A DNA stretch of 29,350 bases from a virus. The notes beneath the pieces are model-generated. The model was not told the DNA's origin. It searched no databases and was given only the letters and a program-made list of their open reading frames with translations. The stretch covers positions 1 through 29,350 of the IMG/VR virus record IMGVR_UViG_3300032235_000396. The stretch is one strand, 5' to 3'. This document shows positions 8,882-28,470 of this stretch, in pieces. A program made the position numbers and the translations under genes. Position 1 is the first letter of the stretch. Every line of letters starts with the position of its first letter.

Positions 8882-8891
8882 CAGTTTTAGA

Positions 8892-8935: not shown

Positions 8936-8948
8936 CACTACTTCCGCG

Positions 8949-8993
8949 ACACCTGCGGCGATGCCAGTGGTGTGACAGGCCGGAGAGACGGCC
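8949..8993 (+). repeat. GAC/GAGAGA RNA element, copy A
   Basis: P1 is ACACC (8949-8953) with GGTGT (8969-8973). GAC (8974-8976) and one A follow. P2 is GGCCG (8978-8982) with CGGCC (8989-8993), capped by GAGAGA (8983-8988). Inside P1 a short TG/CA extension with a two-base GT bulge is shared with copy B. Confidence 0.65.
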
Positions 8994-9057
8994 CCAACTC
9001 ATCAACCATGTGTTGAAGGAGTAACGAGGCCACCGTATAGTGGCTTCAGCTTTTGCG

Positions 9058-9142
9058 ACACCTGCCATGCTGGCTCCATGCCGGCGGCACGGACCGGGAC
9101 TTCTCGGTCGCCGCAGTGGTGTGACTAGCTGGAGAGACAGCT
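9058..9142 (+). repeat. GAC/GAGAGA RNA element, copy B
   Basis: P1 is ACACC (9058-9062) with GGTGT (9118-9122), and it encloses a longer composite hairpin than copy A. GAC (9123-9125) and one T follow. P2 is AGCTG (9127-9131) with CAGCT (9138-9142), capped by GAGAGA (9132-9137). P2 differs from copy A at several positions while still pairing. Confidence 0.65.
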
Positions 9143-9173
9143 TCGTCAGCGATTGACGTGTGAGTCGTGGGGA

Positions 9174-9212
9174 ACGCACCTCTTAGTGGCGTGACACCTC
9201 GGAGAGACGGGG
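9174..9212 (+). repeat. GAC/GAGAGA RNA element, copy C
   Basis: P1 is ACGC (9174-9177) with GCGT (9189-9192), extended by AC/GT with one bulged G. GAC (9193-9195) and one A follow. P2 is CCTCG (9197-9201) with CGGGG (9208-9212, one G-T wobble), capped by GAGAGA (9202-9207). It ends eight bases before the ATG of the 78-aa gene, so P2 could affect ribosome access. Confidence 0.6.
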
Positions 9213-9220
9213 GCACTTTT

Positions 9221-9457
9221 ATGATCGTACTTCCTATTCCAATAATCCCTGAATTGATTCAACGATATGTCGGCGTGCAGGCTCCAGCCAATCTGGTAGC
9301 CTTAGCCAACAGAAAGCCCGCCAGTAGCGGGCCTGAAGGCACAGACGGCTCAGCTATGCCGCCCAGCAAGATTAGCCCCTACAGTGGCATCTATGACGCA
9401 CAGGGGCGGCTACCAAAGATTCCAGGTGCAGGCACAACTTTCATGGCTCGCGTATGA
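9221..9457 (+). CDS. Small hypothetical protein (78 aa)
   Basis: This is a 78-residue protein whose first 20 residues are hydrophobic (IVLPIPIIPELIQRYVGV), followed by a Pro/Gly/Ser-rich tail (residues 35-70). No family is recognised. The frame is open further upstream to a GTG at 9167, but that start would lie inside the structured RNA elements; the ATG at 9221 matches the start contexts of other genes here and follows the last GAGAGA element. Its stop overlaps the next start (ATGA), implying coupled translation. It may be a membrane-associated or head-completion protein, but neither can be shown. Confidence 0.6.
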   Translation: MIVLPIPIIPELIQRYVGVQAPANLVALANRKPASSGPEGTDGSAMPPSKISPYSGIYDAQGRLPKIPGAGTTFMARV

Positions 9458-9777
9458 TTAGCATCCCAGAAAACATGGTTGGGCAGCTTGAAAAAGAGCT
9501 GCGTGCAGGCTGGGAGCGTAATAAGATTGAGGCTAAGGCTGCAGCTCAATCCAATGCTCGCTTTAACGCGGAAAGACACAAGTCTGTGGAAGGACTTGGT
9601 CAAAAGATTGCGACGATACCGGCAACGGCTTACCACTTTTGGGGGCAAAAGCTTGGATACGGATGCTGGAATGACAAAGCATTCATGCACGAGTTCTTGC
9701 GTGACAATCCAGAGTGCAGAGTAAATAGTGGTGGCGTAAAAGAAATCAGTGTAGGATGGACGCCACCTAGCAAATGA
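9454..9777 (+). CDS. Conserved phage protein of unknown function (107 aa)
   Basis: This 107-residue protein has an N-terminal helical, charged half (QLEKELRAGWERNKIEAKAA) and a C-terminal half with aromatic residues (ATAYHFWGQKLGYGCWND, then FMHEFLRDNPECRV). A similar short protein follows the capsid gene in other phages with this capsid type, as far as I recall; its role is not known to me. It overlaps both neighbours by ATGA junctions, so the three genes from 9221 to 10970 form a tight translational unit. A head-completion role is inferred from order alone. Confidence 0.75.
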   Translation: MISIPENMVGQLEKELRAGWERNKIEAKAAAQSNARFNAERHKSVEGLGQKIATIPATAYHFWGQKLGYGCWNDKAFMHEFLRDNPECRVNSGGVKEISVGWTPPSK

Positions 9778-10970
9778 AGACAGTACCATTTAGCGCAATT
9801 CTTGCAGAGTCATGCCAGTTAATTGGCTTGGATCGGAATACGCTAAATGACAAGTCATTTGCAGCTATCCGCGATTTCACTAATCGCCGGTTAAGCATGA
9901 TCTGGGATCGGGAAGATTGGCCCGATATTCAGGAGATCCAGCAGCTTTGGCCAGGCACTGCCATCAGCAATGTTGTCGCTGATCCGATTGAGTTGCTGAC
10001 TGAGTCAGGCGTTGAGCTTCTTCAGGAGAATGGCAACACACTGTTCTTTCAGAATGCTGAGAACACGATCCCTGTAACCATCACGCTTGATCCAAACTAC
10101 CCGCGGATATACCTCAGGGACTTCTCTGAAGAGGCTTGGCAGCAGGGAACGATTGGCAACTCAAACGTCAACATCATCAATCCATTCTGGATTCTGAAGG
10201 AGGACGGCACGCTCGCATCTTCTGCTGCCACTCAGTACACGTTCAGCTACACTGTTGGCGACCCAACGACAGACCCGTACATCACATCGGTCACTGTGCA
10301 GATGCCTTGGTGCACGCCTCAGTGGACGAACATTAGCGGCTCAACGCTGGAGTTTGTGAACAACCGGCAGCCCATCGCAGTGGTTGCTGGTCAGGCAATA
10401 GGTTGCTGGACAAATGATCCTCGCAAGACTTCCCGCGGGAGGGATGAGTCTTTCATCGTGGAAAACATGCCTAACTTGGACACGAACACAACAGTGTCCA
10501 CAGAGATCTTGAGTCAGGATCTGTTTGTGCTCAGGTTTCCAAACTTCAGCACCAAGTTTGTGCTTTTGCGTGCTGTAGCCCCATTCTTATTCGGCACTCG
10601 ATACGATGCCACCTTGGCTTATCCTGCTGGCTCACAGGTCTATTATGACCCAAATCAAGGCAGCTCTGCGTACAACCCGCCAAGCAAGAACCTGCCAGTA
10701 GCTGGCAACTTTTGGAACGCATACAGCAACGCTGCTATCGGCGTGCTGCCGGCTAATCCAAGCTTCTCTTGGAGGTTGGCTGAGATTCCGTTCCGTTTTA
10801 AGAGCTACCTTGTGAATGCTGTGAGTGCTGATTTCCTTCGCTCTGAAGGACGAGCGGCAGAGGCTGACTCGCTTGAAGGCATGGCTGAGTTTGCGGTTCA
10901 GCAGCAGATTGATGTGCTTATCCGCCAGCAAGGCCAGATTCAGCGGATGAACATGGTGTACACTTATTAA
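9774..10970 (+). CDS. Putative head-tail connector or tail structural protein (398 aa)
   Basis: This 398-residue protein begins with a helical region (residues 1-50, including AAIRDFTNRRLSMIWDREDWPDI) like the helical start of head-tail adaptor proteins. A mainly beta middle follows (about 100-290, with Thr/Val/Asn-rich strands and many Trp and Pro), then a C-terminal helical region (RFKSYLVNAVSADFLRSEGRAAEADSLEGMAEFAVQQQIDVLIRQQ). Helix-beta-helix order and position after the capsid genes favour a connector or gatekeeper on the portal, but no diagnostic motif is present. Start coupled by ATGA to the 107-aa gene. Confidence 0.55.
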   Translation: MKTVPFSAILAESCQLIGLDRNTLNDKSFAAIRDFTNRRLSMIWDREDWPDIQEIQQLWPGTAISNVVADPIELLTESGVELLQENGNTLFFQNAENTIPVTITLDPNYPRIYLRDFSEEAWQQGTIGNSNVNIINPFWILKEDGTLASSAATQYTFSYTVGDPTTDPYITSVTVQMPWCTPQWTNISGSTLEFVNNRQPIAVVAGQAIGCWTNDPRKTSRGRDESFIVENMPNLDTNTTVSTEILSQDLFVLRFPNFSTKFVLLRAVAPFLFGTRYDATLAYPAGSQVYYDPNQGSSAYNPPSKNLPVAGNFWNAYSNAAIGVLPANPSFSWRLAEIPFRFKSYLVNAVSADFLRSEGRAAEADSLEGMAEFAVQQQIDVLIRQQGQIQRMNMVYTY

Positions 10971-10972
10971 GT

Positions 10973-11176
10973 ATGATTACCAAGTTCATTAGAAAGAGGA
11001 ATCAGGACCCATCTAAGGCGTTCAATAAAAACTTTGCCAGAATACAGGTTTCTGGTAATAACCAGACTTTCATGTTTAAGAAGACTGTGCCAGCATCTTC
11101 TGCGGCAAACTATCTTACAACTGAAGCCGGATTTAATCTTACCACTGAAGGCGGAGACAAATTGACTTTAGGCTAA
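10973..11176 (+). CDS. Small virion-associated protein (67 aa)
   Basis: This 67-residue basic protein starts MITKFIRKRNQDPSKAFNKN. Its C-terminus holds two similar beta-hairpin-like units, YLTTEAGFNLTTEGG and DKLTLG, a pattern seen at the ends of short phage tail-associated proteins. It sits in two-base and one-base gaps between the connector-like gene and the long fibre gene. No known function; a small tail or fibre-attachment part is plausible from position. Confidence 0.65.
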   Translation: MITKFIRKRNQDPSKAFNKNFARIQVSGNNQTFMFKKTVPASSAANYLTTEAGFNLTTEGGDKLTLG

Positions 11177-11177
11177 T

Positions 11178-13391
11178 ATGGGCGACAAAATCACTCAACT
11201 ACCAGTAGCAACAACCGTTGATGGAACAGAAATCGTCCCGATTGTCCAGGGTGGAGCAACTAAACAGGTCACTGGAACAATACTGCGCCGCCCAGTCGGA
11301 GCTGCCGGAGGAGATCTTGCAGGAACATATCCTAATCCTACGCTTGCTGCTATCACGTCCGCACAGACAGTCGGAAGCGCAACCCAGATACCAGTCGTTA
11401 CCGTTGACCAAAAGGGACGTGTAACCGCGGCGAGCACGGTTGCCAACACGATGGGTACAGTCACCAGTGTTGTGGGTGGCACTGGGCTGACGGGCGGCAC
11501 GATTACGTCCACCGGCACGTTGGCAGTCAGCTATGGCACAACCGCAGGAACGGCAGCACAAGGAAACGACGCTCGCTTGTCTGACTCTAGGCCTCCCACT
11601 GGCGCTGCTGGTGGCGATCTGGCTGGTACATATCCCAATCCAACGTTGGCTGCGGTTACGACTGCTGCCACTGCTGGAAGCTCATCGCTTATTCCAGTTG
11701 TAACTGTAGACGCCAAAGGTCGTGTCACTTCGCTGGCGACTCAACCTAACTCTGCCTTGGGCGCTGCTGGCGGAGATCTGACCGGAACGTATCCAAACCC
11801 AGCGTTGGCGGCTGTAACTACCGCTCAAAGTAACATTGGAAGCGGAACTCAAGTGCCTGTCATTAGCGTTGATGCTAAAGGTCGCGTGACTTCGCTTTCT
11901 AGCGTTCCAGTATCTGCTTCTGTAAACGCGATCACTGCACTAACTGGAGATGTTACTGCAACTGGACCTGGCTCTGTGGCCGGCACTTTGGCAGCTATCA
12001 CGACTGCTCAGACCAACGTAGGCAGCAGCACGACTGTGCCGGTTATCAGCGTGGACGCAAAGGGACGTGTGACCGCACTTAGCAGCACGCCTATCAGCGG
12101 TTCTGCTGGCGGCACAGTGACTAGCATCACGGCTGGGGCTGGTCTATCTGGCGGCACAATTACTGGCAGTGGCACAATTGCCATTGCGGATGTTACCACT
12201 GCTCAGACTGCGGTTGGCAACTCGACTACGATTCCGGTCATTACAGTAAATGCTCAAGGGCAGATTACAGCCCTTAGCACAGCAGCAGCCGCTGGCGGCG
12301 TTGCCTTGGCAACCACTGCTCCAGCAGCCCTTGCTGCAACCGCTCAAGTTGGAACTGGCACAACGGCAGCAAGAGATGATCATCAGCATCCTTTTCCAAC
12401 TACTGCACAAGGAGGCACGGGGCAGACAACTTATACGGATGGACAGTTGCTGATTGGAAATAGCACTGGGAACACGCTCTCCAAGGCAACGCTAACCGCC
12501 GGCTCCAACGTAACCATCACGAATGGGCCTGGAACGATTACGATTGCGGCAACTGGATCAGCAACATCAGGAGCAATTGACGCCTATGTGCTTGTTGTAG
12601 CTGGAGGCGGAGGTGGTGGGTATAACGCCGGAGGTGGCGGAGGTGGTGGTGGGTTTGTTTCTGAAAACATGTCCCTTAATCCAGGAACTGTATACAATGC
12701 AGTTATTGGAGCAGGTGGAGCTGGCAGTACTCTTTCAAATGTTACTCCTGGAGCTGGAGCAGCCGGCTCTAATTCTACATTTGCAAACTTAACTGCGTTA
12801 GGCGGAGGTGCTGGAGCATACACAAGCACAACTGTATTTGGAGGAAATGGAGGATGCGGCGGAGGCGGAGGCGCTACGACTGGACCAGCTACAGGTGGAT
12901 ATGGGACTTCATTTCAAGGGTACAATGGAGGATCAAATGGTGCTTCAATCAGTGGCTATACAATGGGGTGCGGAGGTGGTGGAGCAGGGTTACCCGCATT
13001 GTCGATTAACACAAACAGCACAACTGCCCCTTCTGGAGGTGCTGGGGCACTTAGCGTTATCACAGGCTCTGCTGTTTATTACTCTGGTGGAGGTGGAGCT
13101 GCTGGAGATAGTAGAATCGGAGCAGGAGGGCCAGGAGGCATTGGGGGGGGAGGAAAAGGCGCGGGATTTGATGGTTCTGCGGTAGCTGGAACTGCAAACA
13201 CTGGTGGAGGTGGAGGAGGCGGGGCATATTATGCTGCTAACTTTACTGCAAAAGCAGGTGGTTCTGGAGTGGTTATTTTGTCTATCCCAACTAGTCGCTA
13301 TACTGGATTCATAACTGGATCTCCTGTTGTGACAACGTCTGGAGACAGGACCATTCTTCAATTTAACTCTTCTGGGTCTTACACAGCTTAA
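11178..13391 (+). CDS. Tail fibre with internal repeats and polyglycine tip (737 aa)
   Basis: This is a receptor-binding fibre by architecture. Residues 1-35 form a conserved base (MGDKITQLPVATTVDGTEIV). Residues 40-370 carry five degenerate repeats built on GGDLAGTYPNPTLAA and VPVISVDAKGRVTALS. An ARDDHQHP motif at 398-405 matches the His-containing fibre motif DHxHP. A GGTGQTTYTDGQLLIGN block follows at 412-428. From about 470 to 700 the protein is glycine-rich (runs of up to 8 Gly, with Ala, Asn, Ser and Tyr), like the polyglycine-II sandwich adhesin tips of some phage fibres. The C-terminal 35 residues are beta-rich. The N-terminal base and several blocks are shared with the 376-aa fibre at 13757. 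The glycine-rich tip is a likely site of host-range change. Confidence 0.85.
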   Translation: MGDKITQLPVATTVDGTEIVPIVQGGATKQVTGTILRRPVGAAGGDLAGTYPNPTLAAITSAQTVGSATQIPVVTVDQKGRVTAASTVANTMGTVTSVVGGTGLTGGTITSTGTLAVSYGTTAGTAAQGNDARLSDSRPPTGAAGGDLAGTYPNPTLAAVTTAATAGSSSLIPVVTVDAKGRVTSLATQPNSALGAAGGDLTGTYPNPALAAVTTAQSNIGSGTQVPVISVDAKGRVTSLSSVPVSASVNAITALTGDVTATGPGSVAGTLAAITTAQTNVGSSTTVPVISVDAKGRVTALSSTPISGSAGGTVTSITAGAGLSGGTITGSGTIAIADVTTAQTAVGNSTTIPVITVNAQGQITALSTAAAAGGVALATTAPAALAATAQVGTGTTAARDDHQHPFPTTAQGGTGQTTYTDGQLLIGNSTGNTLSKATLTAGSNVTITNGPGTITIAATGSATSGAIDAYVLVVAGGGGGGYNAGGGGGGGGFVSENMSLNPGTVYNAVIGAGGAGSTLSNVTPGAGAAGSNSTFANLTALGGGAGAYTSTTVFGGNGGCGGGGGATTGPATGGYGTSFQGYNGGSNGASISGYTMGCGGGGAGLPALSINTNSTTAPSGGAGALSVITGSAVYYSGGGGAAGDSRIGAGGPGGIGGGGKGAGFDGSAVAGTANTGGGGGGGAYYAANFTAKAGGSGVVILSIPTSRYTGFITGSPVVTTSGDRTILQFNSSGSYTA

Positions 13392-13394
13392 TTT

Positions 13395-13754
13395 ATGGCT
13401 CACTTTGCAAAAGTAATTGATGGCATTGTTGCTCAGGTAATTGTTGCTGAGCCTGACTTTATCAGCACCCTTGCTGATTCAGGCCAGTGGCTACAAACCA
13501 GTTACAACACCCGCGGCGGCGTGCATTACGGACAGGACGGGCAGCCTGATGGCGGCGTGGCGCTGAGAGCCAACTATGCCGGCGTTGGGTACACATACGA
13601 CCAACAGAATGATGTCTTCTATGCTCCGCAACCTTTCCCTTCATGGACGATTGGCGCTCCTGACTGGATCTGGAAGGCACCAGTTGACATGCCGTTGGAT
13701 GGCAAAGAGTACAAATGGGACGAAGCTGCCCTAAATTGGATTGAACTCGCTTAA
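13395..13754 (+). CDS. Conserved phage structural protein of cyanophage type (119 aa)
   Basis: This 119-residue protein starts MAHFAKVIDGIVAQVIVAE and contains WLQTSYNTRGGVHYGQDG, GYTYDQQNDVFYAPQPFPSW and a C-terminal DGKEYKWDEAALNWIELA. This pattern recurs in short proteins of marine and freshwater cyanophages and other aquatic phages, where they lie among virion genes. Its biochemical role is not known to me. Here it lies between two fibre genes, so a fibre, tail-tip or head-decoration role is plausible. Start 13395 follows an AATTT context, with no Shine-Dalgarno sequence. Confidence 0.8.
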   Translation: MAHFAKVIDGIVAQVIVAEPDFISTLADSGQWLQTSYNTRGGVHYGQDGQPDGGVALRANYAGVGYTYDQQNDVFYAPQPFPSWTIGAPDWIWKAPVDMPLDGKEYKWDEAALNWIELA

Positions 13755-13756
13755 TT

Positions 13757-14887
13757 ATGGCTGACATCAAAATCTCCCAGCTTCCAGTAGCAACGACCGT
13801 TGCTGACGCTGACGTCCTTGTCATCAATCAAGGCGGTGACACTAAGCAGGTAGCCCGCAGCCTGGTTAAAGGCGCAGGCACGGTGACAAGTGTCACTGGT
13901 GGCACCGGGCTTACTGGAGGCACGATCACGGGCTCAGGCACGCTTGCTGTGTCGTATGGGACAGCCGCTGGCACTGCCGCACAGGGCAATGATGCCCGCC
14001 TTTCAGACAGTCGCACGCCATCTGGAGCTGCCGGTGGGGATCTTTCAGGAACGTACCCAAATCCTACACTCAACACGGTAGCGGCGGCAAAGGGCGGCAC
14101 TGGACAGACAGTTTACACGGATGGCCAGCTTTTGATTGGCAACACTGCCGGCGGGCTTACCAAGGCTACGCTGACTGCTGGTAACGGTGTCACGGTAACC
14201 AACGGCAATGGAAGCATTACGATTGCTACTACTGGAGGAAATGAACCCGCCGGAAGTTTTTATGAGTTTTTTGAGCAGTTTTTTGCAACCGCGCCATTGC
14301 TTGGAAATCTAGCTTTTGCTGTGACTGGCGGATCAAACACACAGGTTTCAAGTATTGGTTTTGGCGTTGTTACAATGTCTACGGGAGCAACGGCAGCGGC
14401 AAACCAGCAATCTCGACTCACTCAGGTCACCAACGCACAAATTACTGGCACTGGAACTGCACGTTGTGTTTTTCGCGTAGGTCAAAGCGGAGCAACTTGG
14501 TTTGATGGCACACTCACAGGTGCGTTTCGCTGTGGCTGGGGAGATTCCGTTACGGGCGAGTCTGCAAACGGCATTTACTTCCGCTCGCAAAATGGCCAAG
14601 GAATTGATTTTGTAACAAAAATCTCAAACATAGAAACACTTACATCCACAGGTGTTTCTTTTTCTGATGGCACTTTTCAGACATTGGAAATCCTTGTTAA
14701 TGCAGCCGGAAATCAGGTGATTGCCAAAATTAACGGCAACACAGTCGCAACGCACACGACAAACATTCCAACGGGCAGGTTGATCTTTTTTAGCCACATC
14801 AACCGCGTGGCTGCGACTGGCACGGCAGTCATTGCAAACATGGATTTTGTTTATCTCAAAGTTACTCCAACAACGCCATTCTTTTAA
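13757..14887 (+). CDS. Second tail fibre, paralogue of the 737-aa fibre (376 aa)
   Basis: The first 170 residues repeat the design of the larger fibre in short form: base MADIKISQLPVATTVADADV, then VTSVTGGTGLTGGTITGSGTL, QGNDARLSDSRTPSGAAGG, and the GGTGQTVYTDGQLLIGN block. The DNA is also close at the base: CCAGTAGCAACRACCGTTG at 11202-11220 and 13784-13802, one difference in 19 bases. The C-terminal 200 residues are different: a beta-rich, lectin-like domain (FFEQFFATAPLLGNL ... FFSHINRVAATGTAVIANMDFVYLKV) with no glycine-rich part. It probably attaches to the same base with a different receptor or cell-surface target, an inference from the shared base and distinct tips. Confidence 0.8.
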   Translation: MADIKISQLPVATTVADADVLVINQGGDTKQVARSLVKGAGTVTSVTGGTGLTGGTITGSGTLAVSYGTAAGTAAQGNDARLSDSRTPSGAAGGDLSGTYPNPTLNTVAAAKGGTGQTVYTDGQLLIGNTAGGLTKATLTAGNGVTVTNGNGSITIATTGGNEPAGSFYEFFEQFFATAPLLGNLAFAVTGGSNTQVSSIGFGVVTMSTGATAAANQQSRLTQVTNAQITGTGTARCVFRVGQSGATWFDGTLTGAFRCGWGDSVTGESANGIYFRSQNGQGIDFVTKISNIETLTSTGVSFSDGTFQTLEILVNAAGNQVIAKINGNTVATHTTNIPTGRLIFFSHINRVAATGTAVIANMDFVYLKVTPTTPFF

Positions 14888-14890
14888 CAA

Positions 14891-15034
14891 ATGACTACGG
14901 TATACCGCATTGTTCATCCATATGGCTGGGTTGAGTTCATAGACCAAGCAAAGGCAGAGGCATATCGCGACAGCCACCATGCTGGGTGTGAGATTCAAGA
15001 ACTTCAAAGGGACTTGTCTGAAAATGCCTCGTAA
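14891..15034 (+). CDS. Small protein (47 aa)
   Basis: This is a short open frame of 47 residues: it begins MTTVYRIVHPYGWVEFIDQA and ends in a charged helix (CEIQELQRDLSENAS). It starts three bases after the fibre stop and overlaps the next gene's ATG at 15024. Gene-dense packing and natural composition support coding. The YRIVHPYGWVEFID segment looks like a beta-hairpin. Function unknown. Confidence 0.6.
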   Translation: MTTVYRIVHPYGWVEFIDQAKAEAYRDSHHAGCEIQELQRDLSENAS

Positions 15035-15296
15035 ATCTACCTCTCTGTCTGTTGGCCGCGGCGAGAAGCTACCCGTTTCCAAGGGTGCTGGGCTCACTGC
15101 AAAAGGCAGGGCCAAGTACAACAAGGAGACTGGCAGTAACCTCAAGGCTCCTGCTCCGAATCCTAAGACCAAGGCTGACGCTGCTCGCAAGAAGAGCTTC
15201 TGCGCCAGAATGTCTGGAATGCCTGGCCCAATGAAGGATGCCAAGGGCAACCCGACGCGCAAGGCTGCTTCGCTTAAACGCTGGAACTGCCGCTAA
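15024..15296 (+). CDS. Conserved small basic phage protein (90 aa)
   Basis: This 90-residue, strongly basic protein starts MPRKSTSLSVGRGEKLPVSK and contains GAGLTAKGRAKYNKETGSN, KSFCARMSGMPGPMKD and a final KRWNC, a pattern I recognise from short proteins in many aquatic phages, including cyanophages. The frame extends upstream to 14979, but ATG 15024 gives the conserved N-terminus and leaves the 47-aa gene intact except for an 11-base overlap. The two Cys and many Lys/Arg residues suggest nucleic-acid or virion binding; its role is not established to my knowledge. Confidence 0.75.
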   Translation: MPRKSTSLSVGRGEKLPVSKGAGLTAKGRAKYNKETGSNLKAPAPNPKTKADAARKKSFCARMSGMPGPMKDAKGNPTRKAASLKRWNCR

Positions 15297-15299
15297 TTT

Positions 15300-15464
15300 A
15301 TGGAAAAGTTCATATCGCACATCCTTGAACAGGTGGCAGGCCAAGGCTTGTCCATGGCATTCACCATCGTTGCTGTCTACTATCTGTACGGCAAGATCAA
15401 GGAGTGCGAAGCGGATCGCAAAGCTCTTTGGGAACGACTGTTTGAGCACACTGAATCAAAATGA
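15300..15464 (+). CDS. Small single-span membrane protein, holin candidate (54 aa)
   Basis: This 54-residue open frame starts MEKFISHILEQVAGQGLSMA. It has one hydrophobic span at about residues 13-31 (GQGLSMAFTIVAVYYLYG) followed by a charged helix (KIKECEADRKALWERLFEHTE). This matches the plan of very short holin-like proteins. It precedes another small membrane protein and the endolysin, so a role in timing membrane opening for lysis is likely. Its stop overlaps the next start (ATGA). No Shine-Dalgarno sequence; the start sits in a TAATTTATG context. Confidence 0.65.
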   Translation: MEKFISHILEQVAGQGLSMAFTIVAVYYLYGKIKECEADRKALWERLFEHTESK

Positions 15465-18554: not shown

Positions 18555-18556
18555 CA

Positions 18557-19776: not shown

Positions 19777-19779
19777 ATT

Positions 19780-21378: not shown

Positions 21379-22217
21379 TGACTGCTGAACAAATTATATC
21401 ACTTGCGCTTAAGCACGCTAAACGACCTGCTGTTCTTTGGAGCGGCGGCAAAGACAGCACCGTGCTGCTTGATCTTGCCAGAAAGGTCCGGCCTGATATT
21501 GAGGTTATTCACTTCAAGCTGCCGTTCCTGTCGCATAAGTACGCCTTTCATCACCTTGTACAAGAGAACCTAGGGCTGACTGTCCACGACTGGGTTCCTG
21601 TGTCTGTGGCATTGACGCACGGAAACAGCAGGATTGACGTGTGCGAAAATTACTCGCTTGGCGATGGCAGCTTAAAGGTGATGCGAGGCACTGAGCCGAT
21701 GCAGGCCGGAAAGCCTTGGGTATGCGGCAAGGAGTGGCTCAATCGTCCCAAAGGGCACATCGTCTCTGACTTTGATGTGCTTCTGTGTGGGCACAAGAGT
21801 AGCGACGAAGATCCTCTGACTGGAAGCATTCCGCTTGAGATCGACAAAAAGGTTCTTGGCCCAAACACGGAAATGTGGTTTCCGCTGCGTCACTGGACCG
21901 ATCAAGACATCTCTTCGTACATCAAGACCAACGGCGTGACCTTTGACACGAACAGGTATGATGAGAATGTAGTTAGCAAGCCAGACAAGCACATGAACAC
22001 TGACTACGTTCATGCCTGCTTTAATTGTGTAGACAAGCGACTCGGCAAGTTTGTGGATTGCCCTAAGTATGGCATCCAAGTAGAGAACGTCCATGAGCAC
22101 GTCCTGCACGATCAACCTGTCGCTGAATACTGCAACATCCGATCTGGATTGCAGAGCCTGCGGAGCGTGTTGCAGTCACAAATGGAGTTGGCCGGTGCTT
22201 CGCCGGGACAGGGCTGA
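21378..22217 (+). CDS. PAPS-reductase-family PP-loop protein (279 aa)
   Basis: This is an adenosine-nucleotide PP-loop protein. AVLWSGGKDSTVLLDLA (residues 18-34) holds the SGGKDS loop that binds the ATP-like phosphates of PAPS, APS or an adenylated substrate. Cysteines in HACFNCVDKRLGKFVDCPK (about 212-230) could hold a metal or an Fe-S cluster. The family includes PAPS and APS reductases, DndC-type DNA phosphorothioation proteins and tRNA thiolases, so sulfur chemistry is likely but substrate is not known. It starts one base inside the ejection-protein stop and its last 125 bases overlap the next gene in another frame. No other sulfur-pathway or Dnd gene is in the window. Confidence 0.85.
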   Translation: MTAEQIISLALKHAKRPAVLWSGGKDSTVLLDLARKVRPDIEVIHFKLPFLSHKYAFHHLVQENLGLTVHDWVPVSVALTHGNSRIDVCENYSLGDGSLKVMRGTEPMQAGKPWVCGKEWLNRPKGHIVSDFDVLLCGHKSSDEDPLTGSIPLEIDKKVLGPNTEMWFPLRHWTDQDISSYIKTNGVTFDTNRYDENVVSKPDKHMNTDYVHACFNCVDKRLGKFVDCPKYGIQVENVHEHVLHDQPVAEYCNIRSGLQSLRSVLQSQMELAGASPGQG

Positions 22218-22425
22218 CGCAGCAGAAATACCAGCAGAACTCATTCGAGATGATTACCCACTTCTTAAAACGTGCAACAATAGATGCGCTGCATTGTCTG
22301 GAGTTGTTGGAGAATCAGTTTCGTGTACAATTTACGAAAATCGTCCACAGGCTTGCAGGCAGTTTAAGGCCGGCAGTCTACTGTGCTTAGAAGCTAGGAG
22401 ATCATTTTATGGCAAAACCAATTAA
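22093..22425 (+). CDS. YkgJ-family cysteine-cluster protein (110 aa)
   Basis: This is a metal-binding protein of the YkgJ type. CRACGACC at residues 20-27 gives the CxxCxxCC cluster, and CTIYENRPQACRQF in the C-terminal half is the second conserved block, so a zinc or Fe-S site is likely. ATG 22093 is the only good start upstream of the cluster, so the first 125 bases lie inside the PP-loop gene in another frame. Its stop also overlaps the 253-aa gene by 17 bases. It sits directly after a PP-loop enzyme, so the two may form one redox or modification unit; that link is inferred. Confidence 0.8.
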   Translation: MSTSCTINLSLNTATSDLDCRACGACCSHKWSWPVLRRDRADAAEIPAELIRDDYPLLKTCNNRCAALSGVVGESVSCTIYENRPQACRQFKAGSLLCLEARRSFYGKTN

Positions 22426-23170
22426 TCTTTACCAAGGCCCAGCTCCGGCAGCCATGGGCATGATGGGCCAAGGCATCCTTGAGGCTGGAGCCAACATTGG
22501 CCGCACGATTCAAAGTGGCTATGAGGCAATGGGTAAAGGGCTTGCTGGTGGGATCTCAAGTGCAGCCAGTTCGATTGCTGGGGCGTATACGCAAAGCAAA
22601 GACGATCAAGCCAAGTTTGACGCTACCAAAAAGCTGTTCAATGCCTTTGAGAGCTATCTGCCAAAGCAAAAAGATCTAGAGACTGGCAAGGAGTTTAGCC
22701 CAATTGGAAATCAGATTAGGGCGATATTTAATGACACAACGATGTCAGTCAGAGAGAAGAATGCCATGGCTCCGACGTTACTAAGCTTCCTTGCTAACGC
22801 ACAGCAGCAGTACGGCAGAGAATCGGTTGCAAACATCATGAACGCTGGTCGCGTTGAGGCGGCTGGCGCTCGCAGGCCGGGGCCAGTGGCAGGCACCTCT
22901 TTTGGTGGAGTGCCTACAGTTGACCAACTCCTCAACTCTTCTGTTGGGCAGCCTCAGGCCAATGATGGCTCTTACGCTTTGCCGGCAAATCCATCTCAAG
23001 GAAACCCTGGGGCATTGATAAGCAATGCGCCATATGCTCAAGAATCAGGCACGCGAGTTGATCCAAATACTGGAATGACTCAATTCTGGGATCCAAAAGT
23101 AAAGCGCTGGATTGATGAGGAGTTGTACTTTAATCCACAAACACTTGGGCTAGAGCGTCCGCCTCAATAA
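22409..23170 (+). CDS. Putative ejection protein (253 aa)
   Basis: This 253-residue protein has an N-terminal Gly/Ala-rich amphipathic part (about 10-65, including MGMMGQGILEAGANIG and GKGLAGGISSAASSIAGAY), helical middle segments (KKLFNAFESYL), and a Pro/Gly/Asn-rich C-terminal half. The length and composition recall the smaller ejection proteins of P22-like phages, but no motif proves it. It has a clear ribosome site, AGGAG eight bases before ATG 22409, and starts inside the end of the cysteine-cluster gene. It is probably co-expressed with the ejection proteins before and after it. Confidence 0.6.
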   Translation: MAKPINLYQGPAPAAMGMMGQGILEAGANIGRTIQSGYEAMGKGLAGGISSAASSIAGAYTQSKDDQAKFDATKKLFNAFESYLPKQKDLETGKEFSPIGNQIRAIFNDTTMSVREKNAMAPTLLSFLANAQQQYGRESVANIMNAGRVEAAGARRPGPVAGTSFGGVPTVDQLLNSSVGQPQANDGSYALPANPSQGNPGALISNAPYAQESGTRVDPNTGMTQFWDPKVKRWIDEELYFNPQTLGLERPPQ

Positions 23171-23175
23171 TTTTT

Positions 23176-24675
23176 ATGGCTGATCCAACCTACCTAGACA
23201 GGCTTTACGACGAGATCGGTCAGTACGGAGATCGCATCAAAGCTACATTTGGCGGAAGCGGAGGATTGCCTCAAATTGCTGCAAATTGGGCAACTCCTTA
23301 CGGTCCTTCTCGGGAAGAAATGCTGGCAGAGCAAAATAGGCTTAGGCTACAGCAGGCCAAAGAGGAACTGATGGCGCAGCAAAGTGCTGGGCAATTGTCA
23401 GAAGCAGACATGCTTGAAGGCCAGGCTATTCAAGAAAATATCGGAAACCAACTTCAAGGACTTGAGCGGCGTATTGGAGTTCCAGCAGCTTCTCCTGAAG
23501 AAATAATGCAGCAGCAGGACGAGGGGAATCGCCGGTATGTGCAGTATTTAAGGCAAAATGCAGCGGCGTTACAAGGGCCGTTTCTGCCTCAAGACCAACG
23601 GGAGGCTCTTTCCAGAGAAGAGTACCAAAAGTACGTCATAGAAGGGCAGGCTCCAGTAAAAGCACAACTAAGCCGGCCAGCAGAGGTTATTCCAGCCCCT
23701 GCCGCGGTTGCAGAGATGGCGGCGGCCATGCCAAGACAGCAACAGCCTCGTAGTATCCCAACGCTTTCAGAAGTTCCACAGGAGGCTGTTTACGCCCAAC
23801 AGCTTGGGCAGCCACAAAGAGCTACCATTAAAGATAAAATTGCTTCGCTTCCATACGAGGCGGACAGAATTGACGCAACCAGAAAAGTCATTCAGCAGGC
23901 TAGACTGAAGACGTACAATGATGCGTTAAAGTATGTTAGCGAAACTTATGGCATTGAGACAACCCAGGGCCAGAATGCGTTAAAGACAATCAAGGACAGC
24001 ATTGAGGAAAATCTTCCTTTACCAAAGCCAATTGAAGAACATCAGCAGTTTAAAAGTGCTGAGAAAAACTGGACTGATTTAAGGGAGACTCAAAATAGAA
24101 TCAGCAAGGTCACTGGACAAGTTGAAGAGGCCCAAAGGCTGATGGAGATTGATCCAAATCAGGCCCTTATTCACATGAAAGCAAATGTGATTAAGCCGCT
24201 TAACTCAATCCTGTCTAATGACGCAATTCAATTGCAGGAAATGATTGTTCGCTTTAGCGATTTGCTAAGCGGATCAGAGCTTGCTCAGATTGCAGGAAAG
24301 GGGATATTTAATCCTACAATTCTTTTTAACAAATACCTGTCTCTTGATGACAAAGAAAAAGAAGGATTTATTGAAAAGTTTACAAGAACGCTTTCAGAGG
24401 CAAATCCTCAACGGTTTCTTGATACTGCAATTAACGGAGTAAACGGATACATCAATCGGTACAACAAGGATCTGACCAATCAGGTCATCAACATAACAAG
24501 CCCAACGGTTGCAAGGCAGATGGGAGCCGTGTTGATGGAGCCACTAAAGGCGAGACCGATGCAAGCTGAGCTTCCAGCCACATATCCTCAAGCTGGAGTC
24601 CCAGTTGCTGGGCAGCAAAAAACTGCCGTTCCGCTGGATATTGAGGCGATGCGGTCTCGTTACAAAAAGCAATAA
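23176..24675 (+). CDS. Putative internal virion protein (499 aa)
   Basis: This 499-residue protein is helical and Gln/Glu/Ala-rich, with long stretches of coiled-coil type (about 50-170 and 215-340) and a proline-rich linker around 155-200. Recognisable catalytic motifs are absent. The C-terminal end is Pro/Ala-rich (LPATYPQAGVPVAGQQK). It lies between two other ejection-type genes, so a role in DNA delivery or the internal core of the head is inferred. The start follows an AATAATTTTTATG context without a Shine-Dalgarno sequence. Confidence 0.6.
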   Translation: MADPTYLDRLYDEIGQYGDRIKATFGGSGGLPQIAANWATPYGPSREEMLAEQNRLRLQQAKEELMAQQSAGQLSEADMLEGQAIQENIGNQLQGLERRIGVPAASPEEIMQQQDEGNRRYVQYLRQNAAALQGPFLPQDQREALSREEYQKYVIEGQAPVKAQLSRPAEVIPAPAAVAEMAAAMPRQQQPRSIPTLSEVPQEAVYAQQLGQPQRATIKDKIASLPYEADRIDATRKVIQQARLKTYNDALKYVSETYGIETTQGQNALKTIKDSIEENLPLPKPIEEHQQFKSAEKNWTDLRETQNRISKVTGQVEEAQRLMEIDPNQALIHMKANVIKPLNSILSNDAIQLQEMIVRFSDLLSGSELAQIAGKGIFNPTILFNKYLSLDDKEKEGFIEKFTRTLSEANPQRFLDTAINGVNGYINRYNKDLTNQVINITSPTVARQMGAVLMEPLKARPMQAELPATYPQAGVPVAGQQKTAVPLDIEAMRSRYKKQ

Positions 24676-24677
24676 TT

Positions 24678-26975
24678 ATGGCTGACATCAACGAACTTTA
24701 CGACCTCTTAAGGAGTGCTGATGCTGCCGCCCAAGCAGGCGACCAGCAAGCGGCAGCCGATGTTCAGGCTTTGCTTGGTGAGATTGATCGGATTCAATCC
24801 GAGACAAAACAAGCGCAGCCGGTTGCAGAGCAAAGCGCAGGAAAGGAGGCGCTCGATTACGCTGCACCTGTAATTCGTGGAGTTCTTCCAGCCGTAGCTA
24901 CTCTCGGAGCTGGAGCTCTTGCAGCAGCAGCGGTGGGGGCACCAGCAGCCGCTGGAGCTGGCGCATTGGCTCTTGGAAGTGCTCTTGCTGATCCAATTGT
25001 TGCTGGTGTCAATAAGCTGTTTGGAACTCGCTTAACCAGCCCAACAGAAGCCTGGTCACAGGTCATGGATCAAATTGGCATACCCGTTTCCTCAAGTGAG
25101 GGAGCCAGGCTTGTCGAAGCCATTTCTGCGGGTGGCGCAAGCGCACTTACTGGCGTTGGAGCAGGAAAGCTACTCATGCAGCTTGCTTCCCCAAAAGCGA
25201 GAGCAATTGGCGCAGCACTGGCGTCTGGCCCAGGCCAACAGGTTGTTGCTGGCATGGGTGCTGGCGCTGGCAGTGAGATTGCCAGATCAAAGGCAGAAGA
25301 ACTTGGAGCAGGAGAAACTGGCCAAACTATTGCCGGGCTTGTTGGTGGGCTTGCTGGTGGTATGGCTGGCGCAAAGCTAGGAGCTTCAAGAAGCCTTGCT
25401 CCAGTTCAGCCAAAAGTGCCAGGCATGACTCCCGCCGAAGTTGCAGCAACGGTTGCAGAGGCTGAGGCTGCCGGAAAGTCAGTGATGACTTCTGATGTAT
25501 TTCCACCTGAAACAAAATGGCAGAAGCTTAGGCAGGAGTTTACTGAAGGCACACTTCTTGGAACGGCCCCACAGCGGGCACTTGAACAGCAGGATCGTGT
25601 CAACACAGTGTCTGAGTTGCTGTCTCGATTCGGAGCCGCAGCTGATTCTGAAGTCATTGATGACGTGATGAAATCGCTTGGCCGCGAGAGGTCAGCGCAA
25701 CTTTCAACATGGACAGGCCAAAAGAATGCAATCATTGGCAGAGTATCTGGCGCTATGCCAGCCATGCAGGCTTCTGAGCTTAGCTCTACATTGGCCACAA
25801 TTGATTCAGAGGCCAAACGGTTAACGGGAATCAACAAAAGTCATTATGCTCCTGCAATCTCTAAGCTGTCTGAAATTAAGGCAGCCCTGTTAGGAGATCC
25901 AATCCTTGATCCAGCAACAAATGCTGTGATTGGCTACACAGGAAAGTCGCTTGCTCAGATTGAGCCAAATCTTCGTGTTGTAGGAACCTCTTTGGCAAAA
26001 GATCCATCTCTTGCCCACATCAAGAGTGAATTTGAAAAAATTGGCCAAAAGGTTTATAGGTCACTACGGAATGATGTGAGAGGTTTTATTGAGGCGGCTG
26101 AAGGCCCTGCTGTAGCCTCAGAGTGGACAAAGGCAAATGCCGAGATCCACAACATGATTGGAGAGACTGAATCTACTGCACTTCGCTCTGTGCTTCGTAG
26201 AGGCAAAGCCAATCCAGAACAGGTTGCGCAGTTGTTATTCTCCCAGAAGCCAAGCGACATTCGTATCCTGGTGAGGAACCTTGATGCTGCTGGACTTGAT
26301 AGCGCCAAGTCAGCAATCCTCTCAAAGGTTGCCAAAGACTCGCTTGTCAGCAGTGGCGATATTTCAATTCCAAAATTTCTCAACAATATCCAGAAGCAGT
26401 CTAGGCCGCTTGGAATTGTTTTTAGTCAGCCCGAGTTGGATTTAATCAACGGCAAGATTAACTACCTCAAACTCACTCAGCGATCTGGCTCGTTTAACGA
26501 CAATCCGCAGACCGGCGCAAAGCTGGCGATGCCGTTGTTCGTGCAGATGATCGCTAACGCTGCCGGTGGCGTTGCTAATGCTGCCGGTGCTATCGGGGGG
26601 ATTGGCTTGGCTGCCCGTGCGTATGAGTCTCCAACAACGCGGAGGCTCTTAATGAAGTTGCCAAGTCTTGCTCCAAACAGCCCAGAGCAGCTTGCGGTGG
26701 CAAAGCGAATTTCGACGTCATTGCAGTCTGACTATGCCAATCAGATTGCAGACCAGGTTCGTAACAAACAGCTTACATTCCTGCCTGAGTCCACGCAGCA
26801 AGAGAAAGTTGGTCAAGGAATGGCCATGACAGACGCCACAACTGGGTACAGGATGCTGACCAAAGACAACAAGAAGTTTGGCCTGTATGGTCCAGACAAT
26901 CAGCGTATTGGGATCTTCAGCTCACAGGAAGACGCCCGCAAGCGCGCAGAGAAGGAATTTAGAAAACGCAAGTAA
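24678..26975 (+). CDS. Large Ala/Gly-rich ejection-type protein (765 aa)
   Basis: At 765 residues this is the longest gene product of the ejection block. After an acidic helical start it has a long hydrophobic Ala/Gly-rich region (residues 62-112, including VLPAVATLGAGALAAAAVGA) and further small-residue segments at about 145-235 (ASALTGVGAGKLLMQLA and AGLVGGLAGGMAGAKLG) that could enter membranes. A helical middle part follows, with another small-residue segment near 625-650 (AAGGVANAAGAIGGIGLAAR). The C-terminus is basic, ending EDARKRAEKEFRKRK. Repeated membrane-active segments and helices fit a channel-forming ejection protein; no lytic transglycosylase motif was seen. Confidence 0.65.
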   Translation: MADINELYDLLRSADAAAQAGDQQAAADVQALLGEIDRIQSETKQAQPVAEQSAGKEALDYAAPVIRGVLPAVATLGAGALAAAAVGAPAAAGAGALALGSALADPIVAGVNKLFGTRLTSPTEAWSQVMDQIGIPVSSSEGARLVEAISAGGASALTGVGAGKLLMQLASPKARAIGAALASGPGQQVVAGMGAGAGSEIARSKAEELGAGETGQTIAGLVGGLAGGMAGAKLGASRSLAPVQPKVPGMTPAEVAATVAEAEAAGKSVMTSDVFPPETKWQKLRQEFTEGTLLGTAPQRALEQQDRVNTVSELLSRFGAAADSEVIDDVMKSLGRERSAQLSTWTGQKNAIIGRVSGAMPAMQASELSSTLATIDSEAKRLTGINKSHYAPAISKLSEIKAALLGDPILDPATNAVIGYTGKSLAQIEPNLRVVGTSLAKDPSLAHIKSEFEKIGQKVYRSLRNDVRGFIEAAEGPAVASEWTKANAEIHNMIGETESTALRSVLRRGKANPEQVAQLLFSQKPSDIRILVRNLDAAGLDSAKSAILSKVAKDSLVSSGDISIPKFLNNIQKQSRPLGIVFSQPELDLINGKINYLKLTQRSGSFNDNPQTGAKLAMPLFVQMIANAAGGVANAAGAIGGIGLAARAYESPTTRRLLMKLPSLAPNSPEQLAVAKRISTSLQSDYANQIADQVRNKQLTFLPESTQQEKVGQGMAMTDATTGYRMLTKDNKKFGLYGPDNQRIGIFSSQEDARKRAEKEFRKRK

Positions 26976-26979
26976 CCAT

Positions 26980-27132
26980 ATGCCACTCAAGCACTCACCC
27001 ACCGAAAAGGCGTTCGTCGAGAACATCAAAGCCGAGATCAAGTCCGGCAAGCCGCCCAAGCAAGCCGCGGCCATCGCTTACTCAGTACAGAAAGAAGCTG
27101 CTAAGAAACAGGCCGCTGCAAAAAAGCGGTAA
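26980..27132 (+). CDS. Small basic conserved phage protein (50 aa)
   Basis: This 50-residue protein starts MPLKHSPTEKAFVENIKAEI, contains KPPKQAAAIAYSVQKEAAKK and ends in a Lys-rich tail. Similar short basic proteins with a KQAxAIAYSxxKE block occur in many phages. The frame extends upstream into the 765-aa gene, but ATG 26980 gives the expected N-terminus. Function is unknown; DNA or protein binding is plausible. Confidence 0.7.
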   Translation: MPLKHSPTEKAFVENIKAEIKSGKPPKQAAAIAYSVQKEAAKKQAAAKKR

Positions 27133-27176
27133 AGTTTTCTTGAATCGCTGCCGATTCCATAGTTGTCTGCAAACCA

Positions 27177-27207
27177 GTGGCAAGCGGGCACGGTTGCTCG
27201 CTGCCAC
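27177..27207 (+). other. Hairpin before the SSB-like gene
   Basis: GTGGCA-A-GCG (27177-27186) pairs with CGCTGCCAC (27199-27207), nine pairs with one bulged A, around a 12-base loop. It lies in the 94-base gap between the 50-aa gene and the SSB-like gene. It could end the structural-gene transcript or belong to the next leader. No T-run follows. Confidence 0.4.
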
Positions 27208-27226
27208 ATAACCAAATAATCCAAAC

Positions 27227-27907
27227 ATGAAAGTTGCTAAAATCGCTGACCTCGCCAACTTGGCTGACGGCAGCATCATCGGAGAGATGTCAGTGCAGGT
27301 TAAGGCTGCATTCCCGCCAAAGACCGGCGAAGGCAAGTACGGCCCATGGCGTGTACAAGCCGTAATCCTCAAGGACAGCACCGGAGAGACTCGGGCGTCC
27401 TTCTGGACCAAGGACGAGATGAAGGATCTCGTCGGCCAGACCATCACCATCAAGTCACAGGGCGGCTCCAAGGGTCTTCAGGGACTCAGTGTAAAGTTCA
27501 ACTCACACTCAAATACCAACGAGCTGAACGTCACTGACAAGGCTGCAATCATCGACTCTGCTGCTGGCGCTTTCCGTCAGGCTGAGACTGCCAACAAGGT
27601 GAACGCATCCCTTGCTTCTGGCCAGGGCGGCGGCACTTCTGCTGATGCCAAGCGTCTCATCTTCCAGCGTGCTCAGCTCTATGTTGAGTGTGCCAAGGCC
27701 GCAAAGTGGGCGGCCAGTGAAGCTGGTATCACTGAAGCAGAAGGCATTCAGGCCATCCGTGCTTCTTTGTTCATCTCTGCCGACAAGGCCAACCTCTGGA
27801 ACTGTTTCCCTGTTACTGTGGCCAAGCAGGCCCCGGCAGAAGTGCCTGACGAGATCCCCATGGGCGGTGACGACGTTGATGAGTTCACCAAGGAAGCCGG
27901 ATGGTAA
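27227..27907 (+). CDS. Single-stranded-DNA-binding protein-like (226 aa)
   Basis: The N-terminal half looks like an OB fold: short strands with KAAFPPKTGEGKYGPWRVQAVILKD at the front, then TRASFWTKDEMKDLVGQTITIKS and GLQGLSVKF. The C-terminal part (about 120-205) is mainly helical. The protein ends in an acidic tail (DEIPMGGDDVDEFTKEAGW), as in SSB proteins, where the tail recruits replication and repair partners. Thus it probably coats ssDNA during phage replication or recombination. It opens the DNA-metabolism part, and its stop overlaps the resolvase start by 7 bases. Confidence 0.75.
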   Translation: MKVAKIADLANLADGSIIGEMSVQVKAAFPPKTGEGKYGPWRVQAVILKDSTGETRASFWTKDEMKDLVGQTITIKSQGGSKGLQGLSVKFNSHSNTNELNVTDKAAIIDSAAGAFRQAETANKVNASLASGQGGGTSADAKRLIFQRAQLYVECAKAAKWAASEAGITEAEGIQAIRASLFISADKANLWNCFPVTVAKQAPAEVPDEIPMGGDDVDEFTKEAGW

Positions 27908-28305
27908 ACTCCCGCGCCAAGGGTGCCCGTGGAGAACGACTCTGGCGTGATGAGCTCCGTGAAGCTGGCTTCACTGCAAGGCGGGGCCAGCAGTTCGCCG
28001 GGGGCACAGACTCGCCTGACGTCATCTGCGAGGAGCTTAAGAACCTCCACATGGAAGTGAAGTGTGTGGAAGCTCTGAACCTCGACAAGGCTTGCGAACA
28101 AGCTGAGCGTGATGCGGGACAGAAAGCCTGGATCGTGGCTCACAAGAAGAACCGCAAGCACTGGAAGGTGACCATGGACGCCGGCTTCTTCTTCCAACTC
28201 CTCCGTGAAGGCATGGACTGCCTCACTGAAAAGCAAGAAGTTGCTGAAGATGTTAGTATGCTTCCGCCCGACAGGGGTACGATGTGGTTTAAGTGGAAGA
28301 AATAA
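27901..28305 (+). CDS. Hjc-like Holliday-junction resolvase (134 aa)
   Basis: This protein is a PDDEXK-type nuclease of the archaeal Hjc kind. KGARGERLWRDELREAGF (residues 7-24) gives the conserved Glu12, and GGTDSPDVI at 34-42 with EVKCVEAL at 52-59 gives Asp40, Glu52 and Lys54. Hjc-like enzymes cut four-way DNA junctions; in phage they can debranch DNA before packaging. The start overlaps the SSB-like gene (ATGGTAA), so both are co-translated. Its C-terminal 70 residues are longer than the minimal fold and carry a Trp-rich end (MWFKWKK). Confidence 0.8.
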   Translation: MVNSRAKGARGERLWRDELREAGFTARRGQQFAGGTDSPDVICEELKNLHMEVKCVEALNLDKACEQAERDAGQKAWIVAHKKNRKHWKVTMDAGFFFQLLREGMDCLTEKQEVAEDVSMLPPDRGTMWFKWKK

Positions 28306-28312
28306 CTCTGGG

Positions 28313-28373
28313 ACGCCAGATCGGGAACGCCGCCAAGTGTCAATGGGCGTGACTTGCCGGGGAGAGACCGGCA
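28313..28373 (+). repeat. GAC/GAGAGA RNA element, copy D
   Basis: P1 is ACGCC (28313-28317) with GGCGT (28346-28350). GAC (28351-28353) and one T follow. P2 is TGCCGG (28355-28360) with CCGGCA (28368-28373), capped by GGAGAGA (28361-28367), one base longer than the other loops. Another GGAGAGA follows at 28375-28381 without the GAC part. Confidence 0.65.
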
Positions 28374-28427
28374 CGGAGAGAAACCTACCGTGGGGTAGCC
28401 TTAAAGCTGTCCTGAAATACGCGCCGA

Positions 28428-28470
28428 AGGTACGAGGCATATGCAGACCTGACAGCCGGGAGAGACCGCT
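28428..28470 (+). repeat. GAC/GAGAGA RNA element, copy E
   Basis: P1 is AGGT (28428-28431) with ACCT (28447-28450). GAC (28451-28453) follows. P2 is A-GCCGG (28454-28459) with CCGCT (28466-28470), one bulged C, capped by GAGAGA (28460-28465). An alternative outer pairing CCTGA/TCAGG (28448-28452 and 28469-28473) would compete with P1. This is the most divergent copy. Confidence 0.5.

Follow-up and report, generated by a model that had tools for sequence, protein, structure and literature searches.

A structured RNA family with five copies in a tailed phage: distribution, placement and possible roles

The element considered here is an RNA structure of two stems that recurs five times on the + strand of a 29,350-base stretch of viral DNA (positions 1 to 29,350 of IMG/VR record IMGVR_UViG_3300032235_000396; this whole stretch is the window). 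Its layout is a P1 stem, (U)GAC, one base, a P2 stem of 4-6 bp and the loop GARAGA, sometimes GAGAGU. The described RNAs that come nearest to it are of several sorts. The put sites of phage HK022 (putL and putR) are, as outlined in the excerpted part of PMC9378689, phage RNAs of about 70 nt with two stem-loops. Their position in the lambdoid left operon is apparently shared by the copies of coliphage mEp390 and of E. coli prophages, but not by those at capsid, tRNA and Marinobacter loci; moreover the element, unlike put, forms tandem groups and stands before terminators and among arrayed tRNAs. The abiF RNA (RF03085) is also a small, tandem, phage-borne hairpin motif, although its sequence and fold differ from those of the element and its toxin partner is known: in C. 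difficile, the RNA antitoxin of AbiF has two abiF motifs and neutralises its toxin, according to the excerpted part of PMC12373285. Proteo-phage-1 RNA (RF03044), a phage RNA held in Rfam, shares prophage RNA cassettes with the element without overlapping it. The boxB/nut RNA of lambda presumably resembles the element in being a short hairpin of early leaders whose loop is rich in purines, and presumably differs from it in that the element has the hexaloop GARAGA, and GAC with P1 where boxA would stand. Hepatitis delta virus (HDV)-like theta ribozymes are further phage RNAs linked to tRNA genes, in the excerpted account of PMC10879173. Rfam scans of element loci gave no HDV-type match. The layout of the theta ribozymes, as we take it to be, is a different one.

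The family appears to be a new one of a known kind, the orphan structured phage RNAs, and is apparently undescribed; no description of the motif was found in the open-licence literature searched, where one under another name could escape. Among the 4227 families of Rfam 15 none reached its cut-off at the element anywhere in the window, in agreement with the preliminary description of this DNA, which had recognised no known riboswitch or ribozyme core and had named an Rfam match as grounds for giving the element up. A sensitive Rfam scan of positions 8882-9453 gave only two matches overlapping the element, at E values of 1.3 and 7. In the scans of relatives only tRNA, Proteo-phage-1 and sRNA-Xcc1 exceeded their cut-offs, none of them on the element core, and a sub-threshold RprA match in locus L658 spans one copy of the element.

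Five copies of one structured RNA family

The five copies of the window, which the preliminary description had placed on the same strand at nearly the positions of Table 1, belong to one structured RNA family. They were borne out by the sequence itself and by R1, a covariance model built from 59 relatives (window copy D is one of its 59 rows), which recovers 5/5 of them. The exact core GAC-N6-GAGAGAC is present in four copies. When one mismatch is allowed, the window has five matches where 1.18 would be expected, a number attained in 0 of 100 shuffles; the match at 789 is a false one, and the longer P2 of copy D puts that copy out of reach of the pattern. Compared with shuffled sequences, copies A and B fold well and C and D weakly, while copy E, the weakest of the five, has a broken P2 and folds no better than its own shuffles. 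Within the P1 loop of copy B two additional hairpins are predicted.

Evidence for a selected structure, as had been proposed from the five copies, comes from covariation in the enlarged set of sequences, where both P1 and P2 covary; none of the outcomes that had been named as refuting the proposal came about. For P2, 338 instances were anchored on the 3' strand of P1, GAC and the loop with no demand for pairing (about nine came from loci fetched with a fixed P2), and 935 of the 1014 cells were paired: 861 Watson-Crick and 74 G.U, with 11 A.C and 68 other combinations. The excess of G.U over A.C (74 versus 11) indicates that the strand read here folds as RNA. Hence the element acts as RNA from the read strand, which is the strand of the phage genes.

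For P1, in loci picked by their capsid protein, an ACACC partner was found within 90 nt upstream of 50/50 GGTGT copies and ACGCC of 2/50; for GGCGT copies the partner ACGCC was present in 7/10 and ACACC in 4/10. In the other P1 classes an exact 5-nt partner was found in 44/248, against a mean of 15.7 and a maximum of 27 in 500 shuffles. Pairing of P1 was a criterion of selection in the training alignment A1, whose 100% pairing is not evidence, and loci fetched by patterns naming P1 letters were excluded when the P1 statistics were repeated. Among instances fetched with a fixed P2, a P1 stem scoring at least 5 was seen in 44/187 against a shuffled mean of about 33, and P1 is weak in many distant copies, so that P2 and its flank form the core of the family. 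The variation of P1 reported for the five copies is real, but elsewhere in the family P1 is far more variable than in these five.

The constancy of the loop was claimed too strictly at first: the stems do vary, but the loop is not invariably GAGAGA, since GAAAGA, GAGAGT and rarer forms also occur. With P1 fixed and neither the loop nor pairing demanded, GAGAG followed by A or T was found in 42/46 new instances (GAGAGA in 31, GAGAGT in 11, other loops in 4). The 591 viral elements collected, for which loop and pairing were criteria of selection, have GAGAGA in 340, GAAAGA in 230, GAGAGT in 12, GAAAGT in 5 and others in 4. A single base separates GAC from P2 in 485 of the 591, and T directly precedes GAC in 178/210. 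The subfamily of the window has in addition GCG before P1 (149/179), TGC after P1 (148/179) and AGT before the 3' strand of P1 (166/179). The spacing from GAC to GAGAG is 5-8 nt, and the P1 loop extends from 5 to about 115 nt. Members of the family share ancestry to some degree, and the counts given here are not of independent events.

Table 1. Copies of the element and neighbouring features in the 29,350-base window
Feature	Position	Strand	Description	Support
Copy A	8946..8994	+	P1 ACACC/GGTGT, GAC, A, P2 GGCCG/CGGCC, loop GAGAGA	R1 59.3 bits; fold z -2.6
Copy B	9055..9143	+	P1 ACACC/GGTGT, GAC, T, P2 AGCTG/CAGCT, loop GAGAGA	R1 50.2 bits; fold z -1.9
Copy C	9171..9213	+	P1 ACGC/GCGT, GAC, A, P2 CCTCG/CGGGG, loop GAGAGA	R1 34.0 bits; fold z -1.3
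Copy D	28310..28373	+	P1 ACGCC/GGCGT, GAC, T, P2 TGCCGG/CCGGCA, loop GGAGAGA	R1 32.7 bits (a training row of R1); fold z -0.3
Copy E	28428..28471	+	P1 AGGT/ACCT, GAC, A, imperfect P2 GCCGG/CCGC, loop GAGAGA	R1 17.4 bits, E 1e-3 (at 28432-28471); fold z 0.25
abiF-like RNA hairpin	8893..8935	+	10 nt before copy A, same intergenic array	RF03085 26.6 bits, below cut-off 37
Major capsid protein gene	7799..8881	+	Upstream of copies A-C	phrog_1328, E 1.5e-35
Small open reading frame	9221..9457	+	Starts (ATG) 8 nt after P2 of copy C; in frame with GTG reading frame 9167-9457	Start picked by reading the sequence
RusA-like Holliday junction resolvase gene	27901..28305	+	Upstream of copies D-E	phrog_244, E 2.2e-19

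Distribution and placement of the family

The search for further copies with a covariance model, which had been proposed as a check, found them in related phages and in other phage and metagenome DNA. All five pattern scans of IMG/VR gave at least the matches listed, and the family is present in very many phage contigs; the 591 viral elements are from among those matches listed, at loci fetched because they held elements or a capsid gene. For the capsid-related loci, the best 80 of 196 by capsid homology were taken and, with the window, make 81. A GAC-hairpin with a loop of the family type was found in 74/81 of them, once in 23 loci, twice in 30, three times in 15 and four times in 6, with none in 7, copies being counted anywhere in a locus and some loci being incomplete. 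Each of 31 virus records, chosen through loci having a match or a capsid gene, has at least one R1 match (79 in total), and the matches lie on a single strand within each record.

Outside the viral records, a single pattern scan over contigs of bacterial genomes yielded 46 loci, mainly from Gammaproteobacteria and four from cyanobacteria, of which a few have no stems and look like chance matches. R1 matched 39/81 Marinobacter genomes (two of them from the bacterial pattern scan) and 1/146 cyanobacterial genomes, the one being that used as centre, under stricter filters and with a model biased to the subfamily of the window. By BLAST the element was placed in five plasmids and in cultivated phages of Marinobacter, Phaeobacter, Planktothrix, Microcystis, Pseudomonas, Acinetobacter, Cellulophaga and E. 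coli (mEp390); several of these placements have E values of about 1 and depend on R1 and on checks of the stems. The lambdoid prophage form was found in 4/5426 E. coli genomes, as two pairs of like records. The reported small RNA P22G of phage P22 (21,873-22,076; PMC13397905, Table 2) includes a core-like hairpin, GAC-U-GAUG-GAAAGA-CAUC. This likeness came from a text search for an octamer, with strong selection bias, and may lie in coding sequence.

Copies frequently sit as small RNA genes would: they form tandem groups, stand a few bases from tRNAs within arrays or lie near other phage RNAs, and some come just before a terminator. A tRNA on the same strand starts 2-13 nt after P2 in 43/591 elements (at 2-3 nt in 5, 4-5 nt in 19, 6-7 nt in 9 and 8-13 nt in 10), and no element of the 591 has a tRNA on the opposite strand within 100 nt. 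Many tRNA types take part; 12 of the 43 are tRNA-Met, several from related phages. In the first set, 43/295 elements lie within 500 nt of a tRNA, against 4.3% of random positions in the same loci. Four decoy patterns gave 3, 9, 4 and 21 matches with none near a tRNA; a fifth, CAG with the loop, gave 249 matches with 17 near a tRNA and looks like the same element in a shifted register, not a control. Among cultivated phages, MD18 and Mwe-JY26 have the element between tRNA genes; in phi19:1 a tRNA follows it after 3-4 nt. At nine loci (L007, L019, L030, L043, L088, L294, L343, L377 and L441) tRNA-Met lies 4-12 nt after the element, and in the first four, which are capsid loci, both are placed after the capsid gene. 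The 5' ends of those tRNA-Met, such as CGCGGGG and CGCGAGG, presumably resemble initiator tRNA.

Reading frames and terminators are also close to some copies. In the capsid loci, 34 of the 36 elements that have the ATG of an open reading frame (ORF) of at least 60 amino acids within 30 nt lie 7-12 nt before it. Terminators on the same strand are found 25-100 nt downstream of 26/587 elements (4.4%, against 0.5% at random), and copies end transcription units, before a terminator or a convergent gene, in PS3, in a Sedimenticola plasmid and at several Marinobacter loci. The next gene is on the opposite strand downstream in 81/327 cases and upstream in 83/327, by crude ORF calls; 153/339 elements in the strand table overlapped some ORF.

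Other RNAs share these sites. The abiF-like hairpin beside copy A has the conserved residues of RF03085 and differs from the printed consensus at two bases. In this phage group the motif is represented by 17 distinct sequences, whose stems change in a compensatory way. A scored element is 25-176 nt away from 15 of these; the remaining two come from the window locus and from L065, whose elements were removed as duplicates. The cut-off of RF03085 was reached in 0/20 relative loci. The hairpin at 8893-8935 may be a phage RNA directed against AbiF-type defence. Proteo-phage-1 RNA ends 95-97 nt before GAC in seven related prophage loci (5/20 and 2/11 of those scanned), six of which have a scored terminator directly after the element. 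These loci are L527 (2409-2487), L528 (4867-4944), L513, L548, L606, L624 and L511; tRNAs stand upstream in L527 and L606, and Proteo-phage-1 RNA and the element may share one transcript. Coliphage mEp390 has two copies, and two E. coli prophage loci have four and three GAC-hairpins; these fill the 780-930 nt that separate a repressor-type gene from the next long early gene, and hairpins resembling terminators lie close by. In lambdoid prophages the left-operon leader contains, along with a terminator, RprA-like matches below the Rfam cut-off of 70, at L658 6787-6915 (50.6 bits) and L744 4825-4925 (48.3 bits).

Possible functions of the element

The reading favoured here is that of an autonomous, protein-binding small RNA, a unit of phage RNA and tRNA cassettes and possibly a counter-defence decoy like its abiF neighbour; it is held tentatively, at well under even confidence. 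That GAC and the loop stay constant while the stems vary suggests that a protein recognises them, and by its insertion into tRNA arrays, tandem arrays and leaders, and as apparent stand-alone small RNA genes, the element behaves like a small RNA gene. An element acting strictly in cis on downstream genes is not favoured, because a neighbouring gene on the opposite strand is about as frequent downstream as upstream (on crude calls) and because some copies end units. Ordinary processing of tRNA and mRNA would release a free two-hairpin RNA of roughly 45-90 nt, and this RNA, acting in trans, would offer its GAC and GARAGA for a protein to bind. The target could be a widespread host factor or a defence protein that the phage titrates, much as abiF motifs do with the AbiF toxin, and the dose would be raised where several copies follow the capsid gene or occupy the early-left leader in tandem. 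The only concrete hint of function comes from the nearby abiF-like motif. Of the roles first put forward, a regulatory leader, a protein-binding RNA or a packaging-related RNA, it is the second that this reading would retain.

Several observations weigh against it. No tRNA lies within 20 nt downstream of 548/591 elements, and many copies lie within ordinary operons or have a start codon 7-12 nt after them, which suits a role in cis as well. Terminators are enriched 200-400 nt upstream too (4.1% versus 1.2%), and two groups of look-alike loci account for at least 12 of the 26 cases found downstream. The co-occurrence with the abiF-like motif is without a control, as the loci were chosen for elements or the capsid gene. 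A signal of defence islands is weak: matches to Cas3, PDC-S46, Fic, AriA, AriB and a type III methylase, each by single proteins, occur among 60 neighbours of bacterial copies (49 from Marinobacter and 11 from elsewhere), but strong PADLOC matches come from 60 control ORFs as well (MzaA at 5e-77, RtcR at 2e-96, mad3 in 4), and the difference of 139 versus 26 families is due mostly to one AriA-like protein that alone matches 98. No common neighbour gene was found, the largest cluster covering 6/46 bacterial loci. Confidence in the reading is slightly lowered by the strong PADLOC matches of the control ORFs.

A cis-acting processive antiterminator is a serious rival, with a lesser degree of belief. 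As with put of HK022, which the two stem-loops resemble in outline (in the excerpted part of PMC9378689), the nascent two-hairpin RNA would bind RNA polymerase and carry it past terminators and untranslated stretches, in early leaders, tRNA clusters and long late operons. The early-leader position of the copies in mEp390 and the two E. coli prophage loci, with terminator-like hairpins nearby, agrees with this, as does the untranslated RNA that often follows the element, and RNA polymerase as a universal partner would fit the wide host range. However, HK022 itself (26000-40751) gives no convincing R1 match, the best scoring 7.5 bits; the PL promoters were placed by eye, and an annotated hypothetical coding sequence overlaps the first mEp390 copy. 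The rightward strand of L744 and L745 has no copy in the hairpin scan, the E. coli form is rare, and one of the terminators lies within a sub-threshold RprA-like match and may end a small RNA of its own. The unit-end copies described above are unsuited to antitermination.

The tight spacing of 2-13 nt to tRNAs and 7-12 nt to start codons would also be expected of a processing mark or a small self-cleaving ribozyme that divides up polycistronic phage RNA, creating 5' ends shortly before tRNAs, ORFs and additional elements. The wide range of hosts with no fixed neighbour gene, the conserved unpaired bases between variable stems and the long variable inserts of P1 are in keeping with this, and theta ribozymes near phage tRNAs offer a published parallel. 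Against such a role, also a serious rival though rated a little lower again, several points stand: no Rfam ribozyme matched in the loci scanned, a spacing of a few bases also separates the tRNAs within phage arrays (phi19:1), P1 is barely above shuffles in many distant copies, and the element also stands just before terminators.

It is unlikely that the P2 hairpin is a stabiliser of 3' ends, shielding upstream RNA from 3' exonucleases once the downstream tRNA or mRNA has been cut away. Its position after the capsid gene in this phage group, before tRNAs that RNase P would cut and sometimes before terminators is what such a stabiliser would have, but a plain one requires neither a conserved loop nor a conserved GAC, and up to four copies are found per capsid locus.

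A bolder proposal, rated as very unlikely, is that the element mimics the peptidyl transferase centre loop of 23S rRNA and is a small RNA cut from tRNA-like arrays, an overlooked device that would be among the commonest RNA devices of tailed phages. Around A2058 the 23S rRNA reads GACGGAAAGAC (rRNA oligonucleotides, in the excerpted part of PMC7449152). GAC and GGAAAGAC stand there in the same order as GAC and GGARAGAC in the element; the match is short, was found after the fact by the octamer text search and may be due to chance. In almost any bacterium an RNA of this kind could sequester a defence toxin or a factor directed at the ribosome.

The least credible reading, that of a DNA-level signal (a promoter for a phage RNA polymerase or a recombination site) whose inverted repeats merely look like RNA, can appeal to the promoter-like placement 7-12 nt before ORFs and 2-13 nt before tRNAs and to a core presumably of about the length of a T7-type promoter, but the 74 G.U against 11 A.C on the read strand, which a DNA cruciform would not distinguish, the variable spacing and the copies on bacterial chromosomes speak against it.

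The favoured reading, a protein-binding RNA acting in trans, would, if true of a defence or host protein, make phage small-RNA arrays a searchable source of RNA counter-defences; if the element is instead a cis antiterminator or a ribozyme, many phage transcripts would gain an explanation. Very many phage contigs carry the RNA, as do cultivated phages and some bacterial chromosomes. It is often accompanied by tRNAs, and in this phage group by an abiF-type antitoxin motif; the copies in a coliphage make each reading accessible to experiment in a laboratory strain.

Gene context and minor observations

Further candidates were rejected. A T7-type promoter, suggested by GTGAC-N6-GAGAGA, was given up in view of the variable spacing, the covariation and the G.U bias. 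HEARO or IscB omega RNA (RF02033), a mobile-element RNA in cyanobacteria, was considered on account of an HNH gene downstream of one Planktothrix phage copy; no RF02033 match was found at the element, HEARO matches in three cyanobacterial genomes do not coincide with R1, and none was found in four phages. A Shine-Dalgarno sequence in the loop was discarded, as GGAG is not conserved (loops GGAAAG and CGAGAG occur). A CsrA site was dropped over hosts such as cyanobacteria, which to our knowledge lack CsrA. An attC-like site was dropped on its consensus, which we take not to fit the element. A toxin partner was dropped since no common neighbour gene was found in the 46 bacterial loci; none of the window genes scanned gave a toxin-like match, and the adjacent cognate toxin of a Type III toxin-antitoxin system was not found.

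In six loci of uncultured Gammaproteobacteria (L203, L209, L210, L216, L227 and L231) a long, conserved, structured-looking block stands upstream of the element. By eye it resembled 6S RNA, a candidate given up when the three loci scanned (L203, L209 and L210) gave no Rfam match to the block. The Marinobacter element has hairpins upstream, by eye, and defence and mobile genes occur nearby; at L272, L273, L465, L472, L474 and L481 a palindromic box like GTAAGA-gatc-TCTTAC, perhaps an operator, was noticed by eye before the Marinobacter RNA.

The window is from a tailed phage, with genes for terminase, an SU10-type portal, major capsid protein, tail fibre, virion proteins and RusA, and ARAGORN found no tRNA in its 29,350 bases. 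Copies A-C sit between the capsid gene and the next ORF, and copies D-E between the RusA-like gene and an ORF at 28516. At many of the 24 ORF starts of the window inspected by eye a clear Shine-Dalgarno sequence is missing, which hints at a host that makes little use of it.

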